A stretch of DNA of 64,000 nt, from positions 1 to 64,000 of the forward strand of contig JABDMM010000115.1 in NCBI GenBank assembly GCA_013001465.1, written 5' to 3'. How positions within the stretch are numbered: the first letter of the stretch is position 1; each line of letters begins with the position of its first letter. Shown one piece after another: positions 13,528 to 26,400 of the stretch. Both the position numbers and the translations under genes were made by a program. Under the pieces are notes generated by a model that had not been told where the DNA came from, did not search any database, and worked only from the letters and a program-made list of their open reading frames with translations. Source of the stretch: Chitinophagales bacterium (lineage in GTDB: Bacteria; Bacteroidota; Bacteroidia; Chitinophagales; JABDMM01).

Positions 13528-14823
13528 ATGGCGCAGTTAACACATGAAAACACATCCATCGAAACTAAAAAGGACCTGCTTCAGTCCAAATACAAAAGGA
13601 TAAGGAAGCAAACAGAAAACTTGTGTGCTCCATTATCTGTTGAGGACTATTTGATGCAACCGATCGATGATGTAAGTCCGCCTAAGTGGCATTTGGCCCA
13701 TTCTACCTGGTTCTTCGAGACGTTTATTCTCAAAGAATTTGTTACTGAATATGAGGAGTTTCACCCTGAGTATTCGTACCTGTTTAATTCATATTATAGG
13801 GCTGCAGGAGACAGATGGTCAAGAAGTAAGAGGGGCGATCTTAGCAGACCATGTGTTAAAGACATTTATAAATTCAGACACACTGTAGATGATAGGATAC
13901 TATCACTGATCAGAAGTATTCCATCCGAAAGTTTTCCTGAGCTTGAAAAGCTGCTAATGCTAGGATTAAATCATGAACAGCAGCATCAGGAATTATTGAT
14001 CTATGACATAAAATATATTCTCGCCAGCAACCCGATGAATCCGGTTTATGTTGAAAAGAGTGAGTCAGATTTTAGAGGTTTACCGGGTGATTATTTCGAC
14101 TATGTTAACTATCCAGAAGGAGTTTATGACATCGGTCACGAAAAAGATTCATTTGCCTTTGACAATGAAATGCCGGTCAACAAACAATTCCTGCAAGACT
14201 ATTCCTTAAGGAAAGGGTTGGTGACTAATTCTGAGTATATAAAATTTATAGAAAGTGGAGGTTATGAAGATTTTAAGTTCTGGCTCGATGACGGCTGGAC
14301 ATGGAAGGAAGCGAACCAGATCGCTTCACCTCTTTATTGGGAAAAGATTGATGGCAGATGGATGGAATCTACACTTCATGGAATGCAAGAAATTAATCCT
14401 GATCTACCGGTAACACATATCAGCTTCTATGAGGCAGAAGCATTCGCAACAGCAGCAGGCAAGAGATTACCGACTGAGTTTGAGTGGGAGATCGCTGCCG
14501 GAAAAGAGGGCCTTGACTTGATGATCGGTAATTTTGCTGAAGACAAGACCTATCATCCTTCAGTACCAAAAAAGAAGTTTAATGAGCTGTATCAGATCCT
14601 GGGAGATGTTTGGGAATGGACACATAGTTGTTATTTGCCTTACAGAGGCTACAAGTGCGCGGAAGGTGCACTGGGAGAATACAACGGAAAATTTATGATC
14701 AACCAAATGGTGCTAAGAGGCGGGTCATGCGCTACACCACGAGACCATATCAGAATTACATACCGAAACTTTTTTCACCCAGACAAAAGATGGGCGTTTA
14801 CCGGCATTCGCCTTGCAGAATAA
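13528..14823 (+). CDS. egtB: Ergothioneine biosynthesis EgtB-like sulfoxide synthase (DinB_2 + FGE-sulfatase)
   Basis: PPKWHLAHSTWFFETFIL; LGLNHEQQHQELLIYDIKY (HX3HXE); C-term DVWEWTHSCYLPYRGY...RGGSCATPRDHIRITYRNFFHPDKRWAFTGIRLA. Confidence 0.88.
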   Translation: MAQLTHENTSIETKKDLLQSKYKRIRKQTENLCAPLSVEDYLMQPIDDVSPPKWHLAHSTWFFETFILKEFVTEYEEFHPEYSYLFNSYYRAAGDRWSRSKRGDLSRPCVKDIYKFRHTVDDRILSLIRSIPSESFPELEKLLMLGLNHEQQHQELLIYDIKYILASNPMNPVYVEKSESDFRGLPGDYFDYVNYPEGVYDIGHEKDSFAFDNEMPVNKQFLQDYSLRKGLVTNSEYIKFIESGGYEDFKFWLDDGWTWKEANQIASPLYWEKIDGRWMESTLHGMQEINPDLPVTHISFYEAEAFATAAGKRLPTEFEWEIAAGKEGLDLMIGNFAEDKTYHPSVPKKKFNELYQILGDVWEWTHSCYLPYRGYKCAEGALGEYNGKFMINQMVLRGGSCATPRDHIRITYRNFFHPDKRWAFTGIRLAE

Positions 14824-14827
14824 AATT

Positions 14828-15784
14828 ATGACTGTACAAACAACAGATACAACCTTTGCCAGAGAGGTTCTCAATGGATTAACCACATCACCCAAGAGAT
14901 TGCCTACACGCTTTATTTATGATGACAATGGGACGAAGCTGTTCGAGGAAATCATGCAACAGGAAGAATACTATCTTACGAATTGCGAAAAAGAGATCAT
15001 TGAGAATAACCTGGATGTCTTCAGAAAGATAGTTGACAGCGACCCATTTAATATCGTTGAGCTAGGGGCCGGGAATGGAGCAAAGACTAAGATCATGCTT
15101 TCTCATATGATAGATTCAGGTGCCGATATTGAATATTATCCTATCGACATATCAGAAAAAGCCCTGGACATCCTTTACGGATCTTTGAAATCAGAAATTG
15201 AAGGGCTTAGAATAACACCGTTGCAAAAGGACTATTTCGATGGATTATCATGGCTTCACGAGAAGGACAGTAAAAGAAATTTTGTTTTGTTTATGGGAGC
15301 CAATATTGGCAACCTCGGTGGAGAGTTTCTAAAAGATTTTCTTAGCAAACTTAGACGCAATCTAAATAGCAACGATCTTGTGATGATCGGATTTGATCTG
15401 GTCAAAGATTACAGAGTAATTGAGAAAGCCTATAACGACAGTAAGAAAATAACGCAAGCATTTACATTAAACATACTTAAAAGGGCTAACAGGGAATTAG
15501 GTGCGACATTCAATCTTGAGAACTTTGTCCATTATAACTACTATGACCCTATCATTCAAGCAAACAAAGCTTATATAGTAAGTAAAGAAAAGCAGTCCGT
15601 ATACATTGATGCTTTGAATCTGACCTTTGAATTTGAAGAATGGGAACCAATATCAATTGAACACTCCTATAAATTTAATGTATATCAAATCGAGAAAATA
15701 GCCGGGAAGTATGGGTTCAAGTTGAAGAAGAACTTATTCGACAAACGGAGTTACTTTTGTGATTCAATTTGGGAAGTAAGCTAA
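14828..15784 (+). CDS. egtD: L-histidine N-alpha-methyltransferase EgtD-like
   Basis: RLPTRFIYDDNGTKLFEEIMQQEEYYLTNCEKEII; VELGAGNGAKT; FMGANIGNL; ISIEHSYKF. Confidence 0.88.
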   Translation: MTVQTTDTTFAREVLNGLTTSPKRLPTRFIYDDNGTKLFEEIMQQEEYYLTNCEKEIIENNLDVFRKIVDSDPFNIVELGAGNGAKTKIMLSHMIDSGADIEYYPIDISEKALDILYGSLKSEIEGLRITPLQKDYFDGLSWLHEKDSKRNFVLFMGANIGNLGGEFLKDFLSKLRRNLNSNDLVMIGFDLVKDYRVIEKAYNDSKKITQAFTLNILKRANRELGATFNLENFVHYNYYDPIIQANKAYIVSKEKQSVYIDALNLTFEFEEWEPISIEHSYKFNVYQIEKIAGKYGFKLKKNLFDKRSYFCDSIWEVS

Positions 15785-16985: not shown

Positions 16986-17618
16986 ATGCGAACACTCCAA
17001 AACGTAGATAACATCATCTTTGACCTGGGGGAGGTTATCCTGGATCTAAATCCTCAAAACACTATTCATGAGTTTAACAAACTGATGGGCAAGGATTCAG
17101 TTGAACACTATTCGTTTTCTAAACAAAGTGATGTCTTCGACAAATTCGAGACCGGAAAGATCACAGCTGCGGAATTCAGAAATGAACTCAGAGCGATTAG
17201 TGGAAAAGACGTGGTAGATGAAGATATCGATCATGCCTGGAATGCTATGTTGGTAGGCATTCCAAAACCGAAGCTTGAAATACTAAAAAAATTGAAAGAT
17301 CAATTTCAAACTTTTGTCCTCAGCAACACGAATTGTATCCATATAAAGTGGGTAAATAACTATATGGAAGAGCATAAATATGGGAAGTCTCTCAATGAGT
17401 TTTTTGACGCAGTCTACTACTCCCATGATATCGGGTTTCGGAAGCCGGATGATGCTGCGTATACCTATATTCTTAAAAAACATCACATTCCGGCAGATCG
17501 ATCGTTATTCATAGATGACCGCATCGAAAACATAGAAACTGCTGCTCGTCTTGGAATAAAAACCTTCCATATGAAAAATCGGCACAGTTTTTTCGGCTTG
17601 TTCGAAGAATATATGTAA
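16986..17618 (+). CDS. HAD family hydrolase (HAD-IA-like)
   Basis: NIIFDLGEVILDLNPQ; FVLSNTNCIH; GFRKPDDAAYTYILKKHHIPADRSLFIDDRIENIETAARLGI. Confidence 0.88.
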   Translation: MRTLQNVDNIIFDLGEVILDLNPQNTIHEFNKLMGKDSVEHYSFSKQSDVFDKFETGKITAAEFRNELRAISGKDVVDEDIDHAWNAMLVGIPKPKLEILKKLKDQFQTFVLSNTNCIHIKWVNNYMEEHKYGKSLNEFFDAVYYSHDIGFRKPDDAAYTYILKKHHIPADRSLFIDDRIENIETAARLGIKTFHMKNRHSFFGLFEEYM

Positions 17619-17628
17619 TTTTTAAGTT

Positions 17629-18576
17629 GTGAGAATATTAATACTACCAATTTGCCTTCTTTTTTGCCTGTCGTTATTCGCTTCGGATACAGACACAATA
17701 TTCTTATACGATAATTCAAAAGCAAAAATTGCTGCTTTTCACGATGGCAAGATTCTATCGCCATATAGTAATTCAATTCTCTATACTGTTAAAGGGAATA
17801 TTGTTTTTACAGGAAATTCCGACTCAAAAGATAACATTCTTTACACTATAGATTCCAGGGATATATTTTCAAAGAGCAAATCTGAAGTCCTTAATAAATC
17901 CTCAGACAGCACTATAATTTCGGTGAGAAAGGGAAGAGTTTATATGGGTGACGGCAATGATGAAAGTTCATTGATGGGTTATATTTCAAAGTCAGCCAAT
18001 ATCATTCAGATCAAGAATTTTAAAAATGAGTTGCTAGGATACACTAACTCTGTCGACATTAACCCGGCTGAAACTTTCATGGCGTTTAGTTTTCTTTCTT
18101 CTAAATACTCGATCGGCACAATAACAAAGGCAAGAGTAGATTCAGTGGCTAAACAAGCTGGTTCGTCCGGGCAGGTTTTAGGAAGAGTAAAAGCTCGCTG
18201 GTCGGGTGATCCACTTTCAGAATGGATCTGGGATGGTAAGATTCTCAGACCTCGCTTTGTTGGCGATATCTATTATGAATGGGTTTTCGATGGCGAGATC
18301 GTCAAACCTCGCTGGCAACATCATATATATGAAGAATGGACATGGGACGGCGAGTCGATCAAACCTTTATGGGCTCAAACTCCGGAGTATGAATATATCT
18401 GGAATGGAAGATTATTGAAACCCTACTGGCCAGCAAATGGAAAAATGGAATTTATTCTTGAAGACGGGATGATCTCACCTTATCTCGGAAGCCCTCGAGG
18501 TGAAGAGTGGATAATTGAAGGCAATGTTCCACTTCCGTTGATATTTATTATTGCTTTAGGAATAGCATACCGTTAA
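17629..18576 (+). CDS. Hypothetical exported protein with six tandem 19-aa Trp-rich repeats (xxxxYEWxWDGexxKPxW) and hydrophobic C-terminus
   Basis: GTG start, signal peptide MRILILPICLLFCLSLFAS; repeats read directly from the translation with exact 57-bp period 18202-18543. Confidence 0.8.
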   Translation: MRILILPICLLFCLSLFASDTDTIFLYDNSKAKIAAFHDGKILSPYSNSILYTVKGNIVFTGNSDSKDNILYTIDSRDIFSKSKSEVLNKSSDSTIISVRKGRVYMGDGNDESSLMGYISKSANIIQIKNFKNELLGYTNSVDINPAETFMAFSFLSSKYSIGTITKARVDSVAKQAGSSGQVLGRVKARWSGDPLSEWIWDGKILRPRFVGDIYYEWVFDGEIVKPRWQHHIYEEWTWDGESIKPLWAQTPEYEYIWNGRLLKPYWPANGKMEFILEDGMISPYLGSPRGEEWIIEGNVPLPLIFIIALGIAYR

Positions 18577-18578
18577 TT

Positions 18579-19559
18579 TCATCGCTCGGATTCGAAGTAT
18601 TCTCTTTCGATCGACAAGTCGACTTTCGGATAACGGGACTGCATCTCATCAATTTTTTTAATCTGATCCTCAACAAAGATCTTATGCTGTTGGGTATGCG
18701 AGTTTGTCGGACGGTGATTTGCAGCTTGAACAATAGATCTTACTTCTTGCATGATCTTTCTACTGGCTTCAGAAATTAAATGCGTTATAAATTTTCCCCA
18801 GATCATCTTAATTGCTAAACGATTCGGATGAACAAGATCTTCAGCATAAAATCTGTAATCTCTTAACTCATCCACAACGAACTCATACGCTGGAAAATAG
18901 AAAACCGCCTCATCCCGTTTACAAAGTTCGTTCACTGCTAATATCAGGCTTGCCTTGCTTCTTTGATTCTCTATCATCCCATCTCTGAAGTGCCTGACCG
19001 GGCTCACCGTAAATAGAAACTTGGCATCTGCATTTTCTTTTCTAATTTCAAAGATGGTTGATTGCAGTGCCTTTATAATAGTTTCAGGGTTCAGCATATA
19101 TCTTGAGAATTCGCTATCCGGTTGTTTATGGCAGTTCGCCACTACTTTTTTATCATTGATCTTCTCATAAACAAAAGCTGTACCCAAGGTAATCGTGATC
19201 ACTTTTGCTTCTGTGATCGCTTGCTTGGCTTCTGCAATTTTATCGTTGATCTTGTCCAAGGTTGAATCTGCCGAAGTAGAAGAAAAGTCACCATGATGAT
19301 CAAAGCTGAAATACAGTTCATTTTGAAAAAACAAGTCAGATTCAGTGTATACCTTATTGGAGCAAACATTCCTGATAGCATTACAGATCGAGATCGGGTT
19401 GTAGAGAATACCGAATGGATTATTGATCACCTGGAATTTATTCTCATTCAGCAAGCTGCTGATATTCTCAGAGAAGCAGGAGCCAAACATGATAACAGTA
19501 TCACCATATTCGATCTGAAAAGGATAATCCGGAAATTTAACTTCGGTAGAGAGCTTCAT
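18579..19559 (-). CDS. GSCFA domain-containing protein
   Basis: IMFGSCFSENISSLLNENKFQVINNPFGILYNPISICNAI; TLGTAFVYE; FTVSPVRHFRDGMIENQRSKASLILAV. Confidence 0.88.
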   Translation of the reverse strand: MKLSTEVKFPDYPFQIEYGDTVIMFGSCFSENISSLLNENKFQVINNPFGILYNPISICNAIRNVCSNKVYTESDLFFQNELYFSFDHHGDFSSTSADSTLDKINDKIAEAKQAITEAKVITITLGTAFVYEKINDKKVVANCHKQPDSEFSRYMLNPETIIKALQSTIFEIRKENADAKFLFTVSPVRHFRDGMIENQRSKASLILAVNELCKRDEAVFYFPAYEFVVDELRDYRFYAEDLVHPNRLAIKMIWGKFITHLISEASRKIMQEVRSIVQAANHRPTNSHTQQHKIFVEDQIKKIDEMQSRYPKVDLSIEREYFESER

Positions 19560-20849: not shown

Positions 20850-22940
20850 CTAGTGTAGGATCAGGTTATCCTGAAATACCTTTTTTGCTGCATTTACTTT
20901 TACGATATACATTCCAGCCTCAAGCTCAGAAACATCGATCTTGTTTAGACCTTTGCTCAGGTTACTTTCAGAATAAATTAACTGTCCTGTCACAGAGTAA
21001 ATCTCAAGAGACCTCACATCCTTAATAGTGGCAATGTCAATATGGAAATAGCCACTTGAAGGATTAGGATAAATGCGAAGACCATTTATAATTTCTGTTT
21101 GTTCTATAGCGGTTGGGTCTGAGTCTTCAACTTTAAATCCATCGAATGCCGCATCTACGATATGTCCAGCGATCGCAAAATCAGAAGTCTCAACGTATAA
21201 TCTCATATTATCGGTCGGAGCGAGATAATCATTTAAGTTAAACGATCGATCTTTCCATTGATTTGTATTCAATTCATCTGCATCCACAATTTCAAGAACC
21301 ACATTATCGGTTCCGTTAGTGATCCGAATAGTTAGCTCATCATCAAGTGCTGGTGGCGGAGTACCATTTCCGCCTCCATTATAAAACCAGCGAGCATACG
21401 AAAGCACTGGAGCGTTCATTCCGCTGAGATCAAAAACCGGTGAGAAGAGTATCATAGTGCCATCATCCACATCATTTGCTCCGGCATTTCCAGCAGTGTT
21501 ACCGGTCACCCAGCTTTTCTGTCCGAAATCTGAAGCGATGTCGAAGTTTGGTTGGGTCACATCACCATTAAAAGTTGCTTCCACTGGTACGCCTCTTTCC
21601 CAAATTCCTGCAGTCGCATTCCCTGAAACTGACCATCCGAAATCCATGATGAAATCATCGTAATAGATCCCATCTTCGATCGAGATTATAATATTAGGCG
21701 TATTTTTATCTATCAGCTGGTTAGTGGCATAGTTTTCTGTCATATAGCCCCATTTTCCAGCATAAATATTGTAGTTAGCTTCTATAAATGCATTGGAAGT
21801 GAAGTATCCTCCGGAATTTGCTTCTAACTCGATCTCATAATCATCTGTTATAAAAATTACCTTAGCTGCATCAACACCAAGACCTGTATTTTTATCTATG
21901 ATCTGGCCTTCAAAAGTAAAAACCTCCTGAATTCCAGGACTCGTCAAAAGTCCTGCCCGGCTAGTATTTAGAGTACTCTCCATGAGATCTACCTGGCCAT
22001 CGGTAAATAGATTCATGCAGGCATCATTTACGTAATCCATATAATTCATTGGCATATCCGGATTATCATTTGGAACTTCGGTACACGTATTTTGATTTGT
22101 ACCGGTTATGCATCCATAATTTGCAGAAAATGTTGGAGGAGTATCACAGATGTCATCCCCCTGAAAACCACAATTGGAAGCATTGTTTCCTGAGCAACCG
22201 CCTTGAAAGGTATGTAACAGACCTAAGTAATGGCCAACCTCATGTGTTCCTGTACGACCTCTGTTATAAGGGCTGGCACCGGGAAAATTATTTGTGGTTG
22301 AAGATCCAACATACCTGTAATCTAGAACAACACCATCTCTATTTGGGTTTGTGCCCGGAAGTGTCGCATAGCCGAGTATTCCATTATCCATATCAGCGAT
22401 CCATATATTGAAATACAAATTCGCATCCCATGTCGTAGCCGGTTTGATCGAGTTATCTATTGTCCCTGTATTGCTTATTTGTCCATAGTTGTGGCGTGTT
22501 ATTCCGGAAGTTGGATTGCCATTCGGGTCTACTGCTGCCATAATGAACTCAATATCCATCGAACCTGCAATGGATTTAAATACATTAGGAGTATTCCCGG
22601 AATCCGGATTAAAACGATTAAAATCCTCATTTAAAACCTGTATTTGAGAGTACAACTGCATGGAATCGAGATTTGATCCAAGACCGACAGCTTCTCCGGC
22701 ATGCAATACATGAAAAACTACTGGGATTCTATATTGAGCAACTTTATTACTTGCATTAGAAAATTGCTGATTATACTGAAGGATCTTTGCTCTCTCTGCT
22801 TTTATTGCTTTAAACTCATCTGGATTCTGAATACTGAGCTGTTCAAGAATTTGATCTGTATAACATCTGTGGATCTGCTGTGCTTGAGAGCTTAAAGAGA
22901 ACATAACTGTGACAAGCAAGGGGATAAAGAATCTTTTCAT
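20850..22940 (-). CDS. M43-family (pappalysin-like) secreted zinc metalloprotease with T9SS C-terminal sorting domain
   Basis: GTHEVGHYLGLLHTFQGGCSGNN...GDDICDTPPTF...NYMDYVNDACMNLFTDGQ; C-term LRIYPNPSSGYFHIDIA. Confidence 0.88.
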   Translation of the reverse strand: MKRFFIPLLVTVMFSLSSQAQQIHRCYTDQILEQLSIQNPDEFKAIKAERAKILQYNQQFSNASNKVAQYRIPVVFHVLHAGEAVGLGSNLDSMQLYSQIQVLNEDFNRFNPDSGNTPNVFKSIAGSMDIEFIMAAVDPNGNPTSGITRHNYGQISNTGTIDNSIKPATTWDANLYFNIWIADMDNGILGYATLPGTNPNRDGVVLDYRYVGSSTTNNFPGASPYNRGRTGTHEVGHYLGLLHTFQGGCSGNNASNCGFQGDDICDTPPTFSANYGCITGTNQNTCTEVPNDNPDMPMNYMDYVNDACMNLFTDGQVDLMESTLNTSRAGLLTSPGIQEVFTFEGQIIDKNTGLGVDAAKVIFITDDYEIELEANSGGYFTSNAFIEANYNIYAGKWGYMTENYATNQLIDKNTPNIIISIEDGIYYDDFIMDFGWSVSGNATAGIWERGVPVEATFNGDVTQPNFDIASDFGQKSWVTGNTAGNAGANDVDDGTMILFSPVFDLSGMNAPVLSYARWFYNGGGNGTPPPALDDELTIRITNGTDNVVLEIVDADELNTNQWKDRSFNLNDYLAPTDNMRLYVETSDFAIAGHIVDAAFDGFKVEDSDPTAIEQTEIINGLRIYPNPSSGYFHIDIATIKDVRSLEIYSVTGQLIYSESNLSKGLNKIDVSELEAGMYIVKVNAAKKVFQDNLILH

Positions 22941-23433: not shown

Positions 23434-26400
23434 TTACATATTTCGTCTGTACTGACCGCCTACTTTATAAAGTGCATGTGTGATCTGTCCAAGAGATGCA
23501 ATTTTGCTTGCTTCCATTAAATCGGTAAAGATATTCTTCCCTTCGAGCGTGATCATTTGGAGATTTTTTAGTGTTTCAGGTTGCTGTTCTTGACATCTCT
23601 TCTTGAGTTCTTCAAGAGTGCGGATTTGAAACTGTTTTTCATCTTCGGTAGATCTGATGACTTCTTCAGGTATGATCGTTGGAGAACCCTTAGAACTGAG
23701 GAATGTATTTACGCCAATAATAGGATATTCTCCCGTATGTTTAAGCGTTTCATAATATAGCGATTCTTCCTGTATCTTACTTCTCTGATACATCGTCTCC
23801 ATTGCGCCAAGGACCCCGCCCCGTTCCGTTATCCTATCGAACTCAGACAAAACTGCTTCTTCCACTAAGTCAGTAAGTTCCTCGATAATAAAAGCTCCCT
23901 GAATTGGATTTTGATTTTTAGCCAGACCTAGCTCATGATTGATGATCAATTGGATCGCTACTGCTCTTCTTACCGATTCTTCCGTTGGAGTCGTGATCGC
24001 CTCATCATATGCATTTGTATGAAGGGAATTGCAGTTATCATAAATTGCATATAGCGCCTGAAGTGTCGTTCGAATATCGTTAAACTGGATTTCCTGAGCA
24101 TGAAGTGATCTGCCAGATGTTTGGATATGATATTTCAACTTTTGAGATCGCTCATTTGCTCCATATTTCAACTTGAGCGCTTTAGCCCATATTTTTCTTG
24201 CAACCCTTCCGATAACTGCATACTCCGGATCAACTCCATTCGAGAAGAAAAAAGAAAAATTATGCACGAATTTGTCGACATCCATTCCACGAGAAACATA
24301 GTACTCGAGAAAGGTAAAACCGTTTGCCAGAGTAAATGCTAACTGACTGATCGGGTTTGCACCAGCTTCAGCGATGTGATAACCTGATATAGAAACCGAA
24401 TAAAAATTACGCACCTTTTGGTCTATAAAATACTGCTGAACATCTCCCATGAGTTTTAATGAGAACTCAGTTGAGAATATACATGTATTCTGTGCCTGGT
24501 CTTCTTTTAGGATATCTGCTTGCACAGTTCCACGCACATTTGCAAGTGTATGACTTTTAATTTCCTCATAGACTTCAGCTGAAAGAACTTTATCACCTGT
24601 TGTCCCTAGCAACATCAGTCCCAGGCCATCATTTCCCTCCGGCAGATCGCCATTATATTGAGGCTGTTTGTCGTTTTTGAAAATGACCTTAAGCTTTGCT
24701 TTAACCTCTTCTTCAAGCCCATTTTCTTTAATATACTTTTCACACTGCTGATCGATAGCAGCATTTAAAAAGAATGCGGTTATTATAGCTGCCGGACCAT
24801 TGATCGTCATCGACACCGAAGTCTTTGGATTGCAGAGATCAAAACCGGAATACAGTTTTTTCGCATCATCAAGACAACAAACTGAAACACCTGAGTTTCC
24901 TATTTTACCATATATATCTGGTCTGTGATCAGGATCTTCACCATAAAGCGTAACAGAATCAAATGCGGTAGACAATCGTTTTGCAGGCATTCCAAGAGAC
25001 ACGTAATGAAAACGTTTATTCGTCCGTTCGGGTCCGCCTTCACCGGCAAACATTCGAGTTGGATCCTCGCCTTCTCTTTTAAAAGGGAAAACTCCAGCTG
25101 TGAAGGGGAAACTACCTGGGACATTTTCCTGCTTCAACCATCGCAACAGGTCTCCCCAAGCCTGATATTTCGGAGTACTGATCTTGGGGATGTTTATGTG
25201 CGAGAGTGACTTTGAATGAGTATCGACTTTAATTTCTTTATCTCTCACTTTAAATACATATTCGTCATCCTCATATCTTTTCTTAAGTTTCGGCCAACCT
25301 TCGAGCAAGGACAAATTTTCGGGTTTCAGGTTCTTTCTGAATGAAACTATCTTTTCATCTAATTCTGAAGGAGAATGTTCACCCAGGATCATTTTTGATT
25401 GCTCAAGATTGTAGACTTTCTGTGCTATATCAGATTGCTCTTCTACTTCCTTATTATATCCTCGAATAGTTTCAGAGATTTCTGAAAGATAACGAACACG
25501 CTTAGGAGGAATGATATAGATCTTTTCAGACATCTCCGTGCCCGGATTGAAACCGGATTTCAAATCTGCCTTGGTCTTTTCGTTCAACACTTCCAGTATG
25601 CGAACATAGAGATTGTTCATCCCGGGATCATTGAACTGTGAAGCTATGGTACCGACTACGGGTAACGAATCATCGTCGGCTTCGAATTGGTTATGATTTC
25701 TTTTGAATTGTTTCTTTACATCTCGAAGGGCATCGAGAGCGCCACGCTTATCGAATTTATTGATCGCTATGATATCTGCAAAATCAAGCATATCGATCTT
25801 CTCTAATTGTGAAGCAGCACCATACTCAGGGGTCATAACATATAATGAAGCGTCTGAGAAATCGACGATCTCAGTATCTGATTGACCTATACCTGATGTT
25901 TCGAGAATGATCAGATCAAACTTTGCATATTTTAAAACATTCAAAACATCATCAATATATTTTGAAAGGGCCAGATTCGATTGTCTTGTCGCAAGAGAAC
26001 GCATATAGACTCTGTCATTATAGATCGAATTCATTCTGATCCGATCACCCAACAACGCTCCACCGCTCTTTCTTTTTGAAGGATCAACAGAAACGATAGC
26101 GACTTGTTTGTCATCAAAATCAATAAGAAACCTGCGAACCAATTCATCGACAAGTGAAGATTTCCCTGCACCGCCAGTTCCTGTAATTCCCAGAACAGGA
26201 GTTGCGGACGTTTTAGCTTCCTTTCTAATGATGGCCATCATCTCTCCGTACTGCGAACCGTAATTTTCAATACCGCTGATCACTTTTGCGATCGCACCTT
26301 TATCTGCAACACCTTTGATCTTGAATTCTCCATTGAGTTGTTCACCGATCGCGTAATCGCTTTGTTTTAGCAAATCGTTGATCATACCCTGAAGCCCCAT

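Follow-up and report, generated by a model that had tools for sequence, protein, structure and literature searches.

An exported Chitinophagales protein predicted to carry two six-fold beta-flowers in one chain

A gene in the window, by which we mean the whole 64,000-nucleotide stretch of DNA analysed, encodes a 315-residue protein with six 19-residue repeats in its C-terminal half. Taken together, homology and structure prediction make it highly probable that this protein consists of two six-fold beta-flowers in tandem and that the repeats build the second barrel, one hairpin each. As a whole, the protein is best explained as an envelope protein that is exported, soluble and non-enzymatic and that consists of two consecutive barrels of this type. 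The initial annotation had raised the possibility of an undescribed fold, which is not supported, as homology and prediction point to the six-fold beta-flower described in 2023. The novelty is best read as a diverged arrangement of a known fold, with two flowers in one chain, and not as a new fold.

Beta-flowers are shallow barrels whose petals, four, five or six in number, are hairpins; many of the barrels enclose a C-terminal hydrophobic helix (Durairaj et al. 2023, PMC10584680). The fold was named in 2023; some flowers carry lipoprotein signals, some have basic, Phe-tipped loops, and the families share Pfam clan CL0395 with Tubby (PMC10584680). A semiconserved [DNEQ]xxG motif lies at the hairpin tip (PMC10584680).

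Coding sequence and export signal

The coding sequence occupies positions 17629-18576 of the forward strand, on which all features of the protein given below also lie. Judging from the open reading frame list and the family-wide alignment, GTG is the sole usable start near the N-terminus. The protein had been described earlier as exported with a signal peptide at its front, and a signal-like segment can indeed be read at about residues 1-19 (17629-17685). This segment lacks a lipobox, and a pattern search for the lipobox likewise returned none among the 31 family members.

The 19-residue repeats

Residues 192-305 comprise six consecutive 19-residue units with zero indels. At an offset of 19 the BLOSUM62 self-score was 183, and all remaining offsets from 12 to 26 scored negative. 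By comparison, 20,000 shuffles, each represented by its best offset from 12 to 26, gave a mean of -71 (sd 15) and a maximum of 17, and the six units proposed from first inspection of the C-terminal half were therefore borne out. As delimited by the self-score and the model of the C-domain, the units are SGDPLSEWIWDGKILRPRF (18202-18258), VGDIYYEWVFDGEIVKPRW (18259-18315), QHHIYEEWTWDGESIKPLW (18316-18372), AQTPEYEYIWNGRLLKPYW (18373-18429), PANGKMEFILEDGMISPYL (18430-18486) and GSPRGEEWIIEGNVPLPLI (18487-18543), the last of which supplies a first strand only and then turns into a helix. They are preceded by a half-unit, GRVKARW (residues 185-191; 18181-18201), which is found throughout the alignment and forms a strand in both AlphaFold2 models.

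Within each unit, a first strand of the type E-W-x-W is followed by a DG turn and a second strand of the type I/L-K-P-x-W. The tip of the hairpin is mostly [DE]-G (D 72% and G 80% at unit positions 11-12), and aromatic residues alternate, with W, Y or F at position 8 and W or F at position 10. All 31 distinct homologous sequences contained six units, mostly of 19 residues (range 17-20), with a half-unit of the type I-K-P-x-W before them and an ending E-W-x-I-x-G-x-I-P-x-P, followed by a hydrophobic stretch, after them. When units were compared between proteins, those at equal index were somewhat more alike than those at unequal index (32% vs 27%), which argues for units of ancient origin, each kept at its own place in the series.

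Predicted structure of the two domains

Full-length AlphaFold2 prediction from a 17-sequence alignment (pLDDT 83.8) returned a plan of 12 strands and a helix twice. The predicted elements are, in order, 12 strands in residues 24-139 (17698-18045), which make up the N-domain; a helix at 146-159 (18064-18105), taken as the core helix of that domain; a linker helix at 162-178 (18112-18162); 12 strands in residues 185-298; and a helix at 302-309 (18532-18555). The full-length pTM was only 0.53, and the mutual placement of the two domains is not fixed by the model. Prediction of the isolated C-domain from 31 sequences gave a pLDDT of 90.1 and a pTM of 0.86, again with 12 strands and then a helix. 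Both domains are thus predicted with the anatomy of the six-fold beta-flower family PF21786, the N-domain with 12 strands and a hydrophobic helix and the C-domain with six hairpins (12 strands) and a terminal helix.

These predictions bear on several features that had been noted from the sequence. Two short strands with a DG turn had been suggested for each unit, and a hairpin per unit is supported. The fold had been thought to extend further toward the N-terminus because of a related stretch there (KIAAFHDGKILSPYS); this stretch falls in the first hairpin (strands 33-38 and 41-43) of the separate N-domain. The hydrophobic tail is present as well; the prediction makes it a short helix (302-309) behind the last strand and not a membrane span. 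A C-terminal membrane anchor was rejected, as this predicted helix is 8 residues long and known flowers, PF21786 members among them, end in a similar way. In light of beta-flower anatomy, we therefore read the tail as the probable core helix of the second barrel.

Foldseek comparison of both AlphaFold2 models with the PDB and with viral models yielded no significant match, and a PDB sequence search with the protein returned nothing meaningful. The authors who named the fold likewise obtained no PDB match for it by Foldseek or HHpred (PMC10584680). No family for the protein was found in NCBIfam, PADLOC or PHROGs.

Relationship to the six-fold beta-flower family PF21786

In a Pfam search with the whole protein, the N-domain matched PF21786 at 31 bits (E 2.7e-7), below the curated Pfam cut-off of 34 bits, and hhalign of the N-domain against accepted PF21786 proteins gave a probability of 98% over 117 columns. 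By Pfam's rule the N-domain thus falls outside the family, and we treat it as closely related to PF21786. A PF21786 match at E <= 1 was seen in 15 of 17 family members.

The isolated repeats of the C-domain had no Pfam match at all. An HMM built on the C-domain nevertheless found three accepted PF21786 proteins, designated L123 (35.5 bits), L121 (26.1 bits) and L122 (25.3 bits), whereas 2,100 shuffled and 7 reversed control sequences reached at most 9.1 bits. In these three proteins, units such as YTWDGKHIFQGDSNSTSK recur every 20 residues behind a half-unit, and a hydrophobic segment closes the chain, as in the C-domain; their hairpins (YTWDGKHIF) are also of the same type as those of the C-domain. 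A further connection is provided by a stand-alone protein from Salinibacter ruber (WP_240331486.1; plasmid pSR60, hypothetical protein, 153 aa), which scored 111 bits against the C-domain profile and aligned to positions 5-124 of the 125 in PF21786 at 22 bits (E 1.6e-4). Direct hhalign comparison of the C-domain with PF21786 gave probabilities of 5% (large set) and 44% (small set), both with scores above those of all shuffles. With direct profile-profile scores this weak, the C-domain falls short of Pfam's own rule, and the best description is that of a diverged relative which shares the family's anatomy. It differs from nearly all PF21786 members gathered in its period (19 vs 20), and its tip, mostly [DE]-G, lacks the two residues between that mark the published motif, in which it resembles the WDG tips of L121-L123. 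A match to a described repeat family, which the initial annotation had named as a result that would speak against it, was accordingly found directly for the N-domain and, for the repeats, through linked profile matches.

The profiles of the N- and C-domains did not match each other directly (probability 0.6%), and there is therefore no support for one flower having arisen from the other by recent duplication. The same result, together with the weak direct score against PF21786, would suit a C-domain that is an unrelated repeat domain converged on the plan of the N-terminal flower. We regard such convergence as very unlikely, since the C-domain profile matches three accepted PF21786 proteins far above shuffles, the Salinibacter protein bridges the C-domain and PF21786, and the half-unit, the hairpin motif and the ending are shared with PF21786 members.

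Short regular units with a DG turn, a hydrophobic tail and the lack of a PDB fold match are also what might be expected of an open beta-solenoid or beta-ladder of 19-residue units, as had first been suggested, with a C-terminal membrane tail. This arrangement is very unlikely and was rejected: the copy number is six in 31 of 31 sequences with the half-unit and ending fixed, the stand-alone Salinibacter form keeps both the six units and the ends, the homology is to a closed-barrel family, and the 8-residue predicted helix is too short for a membrane span. The repeats are thus probably not an undescribed solenoid or ladder, and prediction and homology favour two closed six-fold beta-flowers.

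Distribution of homologues

Among 60 related genomes, 16 further loci were found in 15 genomes besides the window's own, with most of the protein matched at 26-33% identity. Across Chitinophagales, the order to which the window belongs, 39 of 399 genomes gave a match; two of these (G370 and G558) were weak and covered only the N-domain part of the profile, leaving about 37. A sample of the phylum (297 genomes) contained, besides the window's own, a sole marginal match that is interrupted by stop codons. Named records assign relatives either to Chitinophagales or to metagenome assemblies of unnamed Bacteroidota; phage records and viral contigs yielded none.

Several observations were made alongside this survey. 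One genome carries the double-flower gene twice in tandem (L014 and L017; G048 contig 40, 31772-33696), with the second copy more diverged. PF21786 itself was present above its cut-off in 52 of 150 genomes of the order of genome G100, which lies in the same class as the window, compared with 3 of 198 in the phylum sample, a lineage-specific enrichment. A small accepted member (L068, 1480-1839) has a 17-residue period with alternating unit types, FTWDWPYLKQGYGG and TLDGDYIRDGYGG, and an ending, EGMVPKPIIMMII, that resembles the ending of the C-domain in the window. At another locus (L114; G704 contig 2, about 24931-25293), a PF21786 flower opens a 425-residue protein whose end, by eye, looks like a sorting domain for type IX secretion, an architecture which suggests that some flowers may be sent to the cell surface.

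Gene neighbourhood

A HAD-IA hydrolase gene (Pfam HAD_2; 16986-17618, forward strand) ends 10 bp upstream of the flower gene. The same arrangement, with a HAD gene directly upstream on the same strand, was found in 17 of 31 family loci; 11 of these come from one genus, and the whole set is spread over four taxonomic families. A similar HAD protein occurs in 41 of 60 relatives, the flower in far fewer, and several genomes with the flower carry the HAD gene elsewhere. An obligate pair was therefore ruled out, and the pairing is regarded as frequent but not obligate. On the other side of the flower gene lies a convergent gene of the GSCFA family (PF08885, 303.7 bits; 18579-19559, reverse strand), a neighbour that recurs in 5 loci.

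Two other loci in the window are recorded here. At 13528-15784 (forward strand), a gene for an FGE-sulfatase/DinB_2 protein is directly followed by one for a histidine-specific SAM methyltransferase (Methyltransf_33); adjacent genes of these two kinds are what one expects for biosynthesis of the ergothioneine or ovothiol type (EgtB/EgtD-like). At 20850-22940 (reverse strand), the window encodes a 696-residue metalloprotease of the M43 type that carries at its C-terminus a sorting domain for type IX secretion (Por_Secre_tail).

Proposed architecture and role

In the architecture that we propose, each of the six 19-residue hairpins would form one petal of the second barrel. The half-unit GRVKARW would complete the last hairpin as its second strand, and from this pairing with unit 6 we infer a closed ring. 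The hydrophobic tail may fill the channel of the barrel and pack on the inward-facing aromatic residues. A ring closed in this way around the tail would fix the copy number at six.

In the C-domain, the residues that are invariant or nearly so are G, W, P, F and the turn D. As these look structural and no catalytic cluster stands out, an enzyme is considered unlikely, and we put forward, with low confidence, that the protein may serve the cell envelope in binding or as a scaffold. In such a role, the variable loops of the rim might bind a ligand (a protein, a polymer or a lipid head group) in the periplasm or at the cell surface, and the flower protein would probably be co-expressed with the HAD phosphatase in many genomes. 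A far more specific proposal would make the protein a receptor, or a handler of lipids, dedicated to the envelope of Chitinophagales; its Trp-lined second barrel would bind a ligand that replaces or moves the core helix, and its expression would be linked to the HAD phosphatase next to it. This proposal appears most improbable.

The barrels could instead act on membrane lipids of the bacterial envelope, binding or moving them in the manner of Tubby or the phospholipid scramblases. The shared Pfam clan points in this direction, as do the lipoprotein signals and the basic, Phe-tipped loops of some flowers (PMC10584680). We consider this role unlikely for the present protein. None of the 31 family members has a lipobox, and no functional study of any beta-flower was found in the literature searched. 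In addition, acidic residues of the C-domain equal or outnumber basic ones in 31 of 31 sequences, and a Tubby-like affinity for acidic lipids is therefore not favoured.

Whichever role applies to the two flowers, the findings indicate that the beta-flower, a fold described from predicted structures, extends to sequences beyond the reach of the Pfam models and can occur twice in one chain. The very regular second flower, and above all the 153-residue stand-alone Salinibacter form, is a good candidate for the first solved beta-flower structure, which would in turn test the proposed link to Tubby and the scramblases.

Comparison with known systems

The Tubby C-terminal domain and the phospholipid scramblases belong to the same clan, CL0395, and likewise have a 12-stranded barrel around a hydrophobic helix, with longer strands and a circular permutation (PMC10584680). 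Their solved members were not matched by phmmer, hmmsearch or Foldseek. The five-fold family PF21785 (Bflower_2) shares with the window protein its repeated hairpins, a G-containing tip and a terminal hydrophobic segment, but has a shorter period and another copy number; it showed no significant profile match with the C-domain and was rejected as an assignment for the repeats.

The Salinibacter ruber protein WP_240331486.1 has the same six 19-residue units, half-unit and ending (EGHVPVPVAALVVLG) as the C-domain. It differs in that it consists of the C-domain only, behind a signal-like segment of its own and without an N-terminal flower. With PF21786 (Bflower_3, CL0395), the window protein has in common six hairpins or 12 strands, a G-containing tip, a leading half-unit, a terminal hydrophobic segment and, as often in that family, a signal peptide. 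Unlike PF21786 proteins, it has two flowers per chain, the second of which is Trp-rich (EWxWDGxxLKPxW), with a period of 19 rather than 20 and without a hit to the Pfam model.
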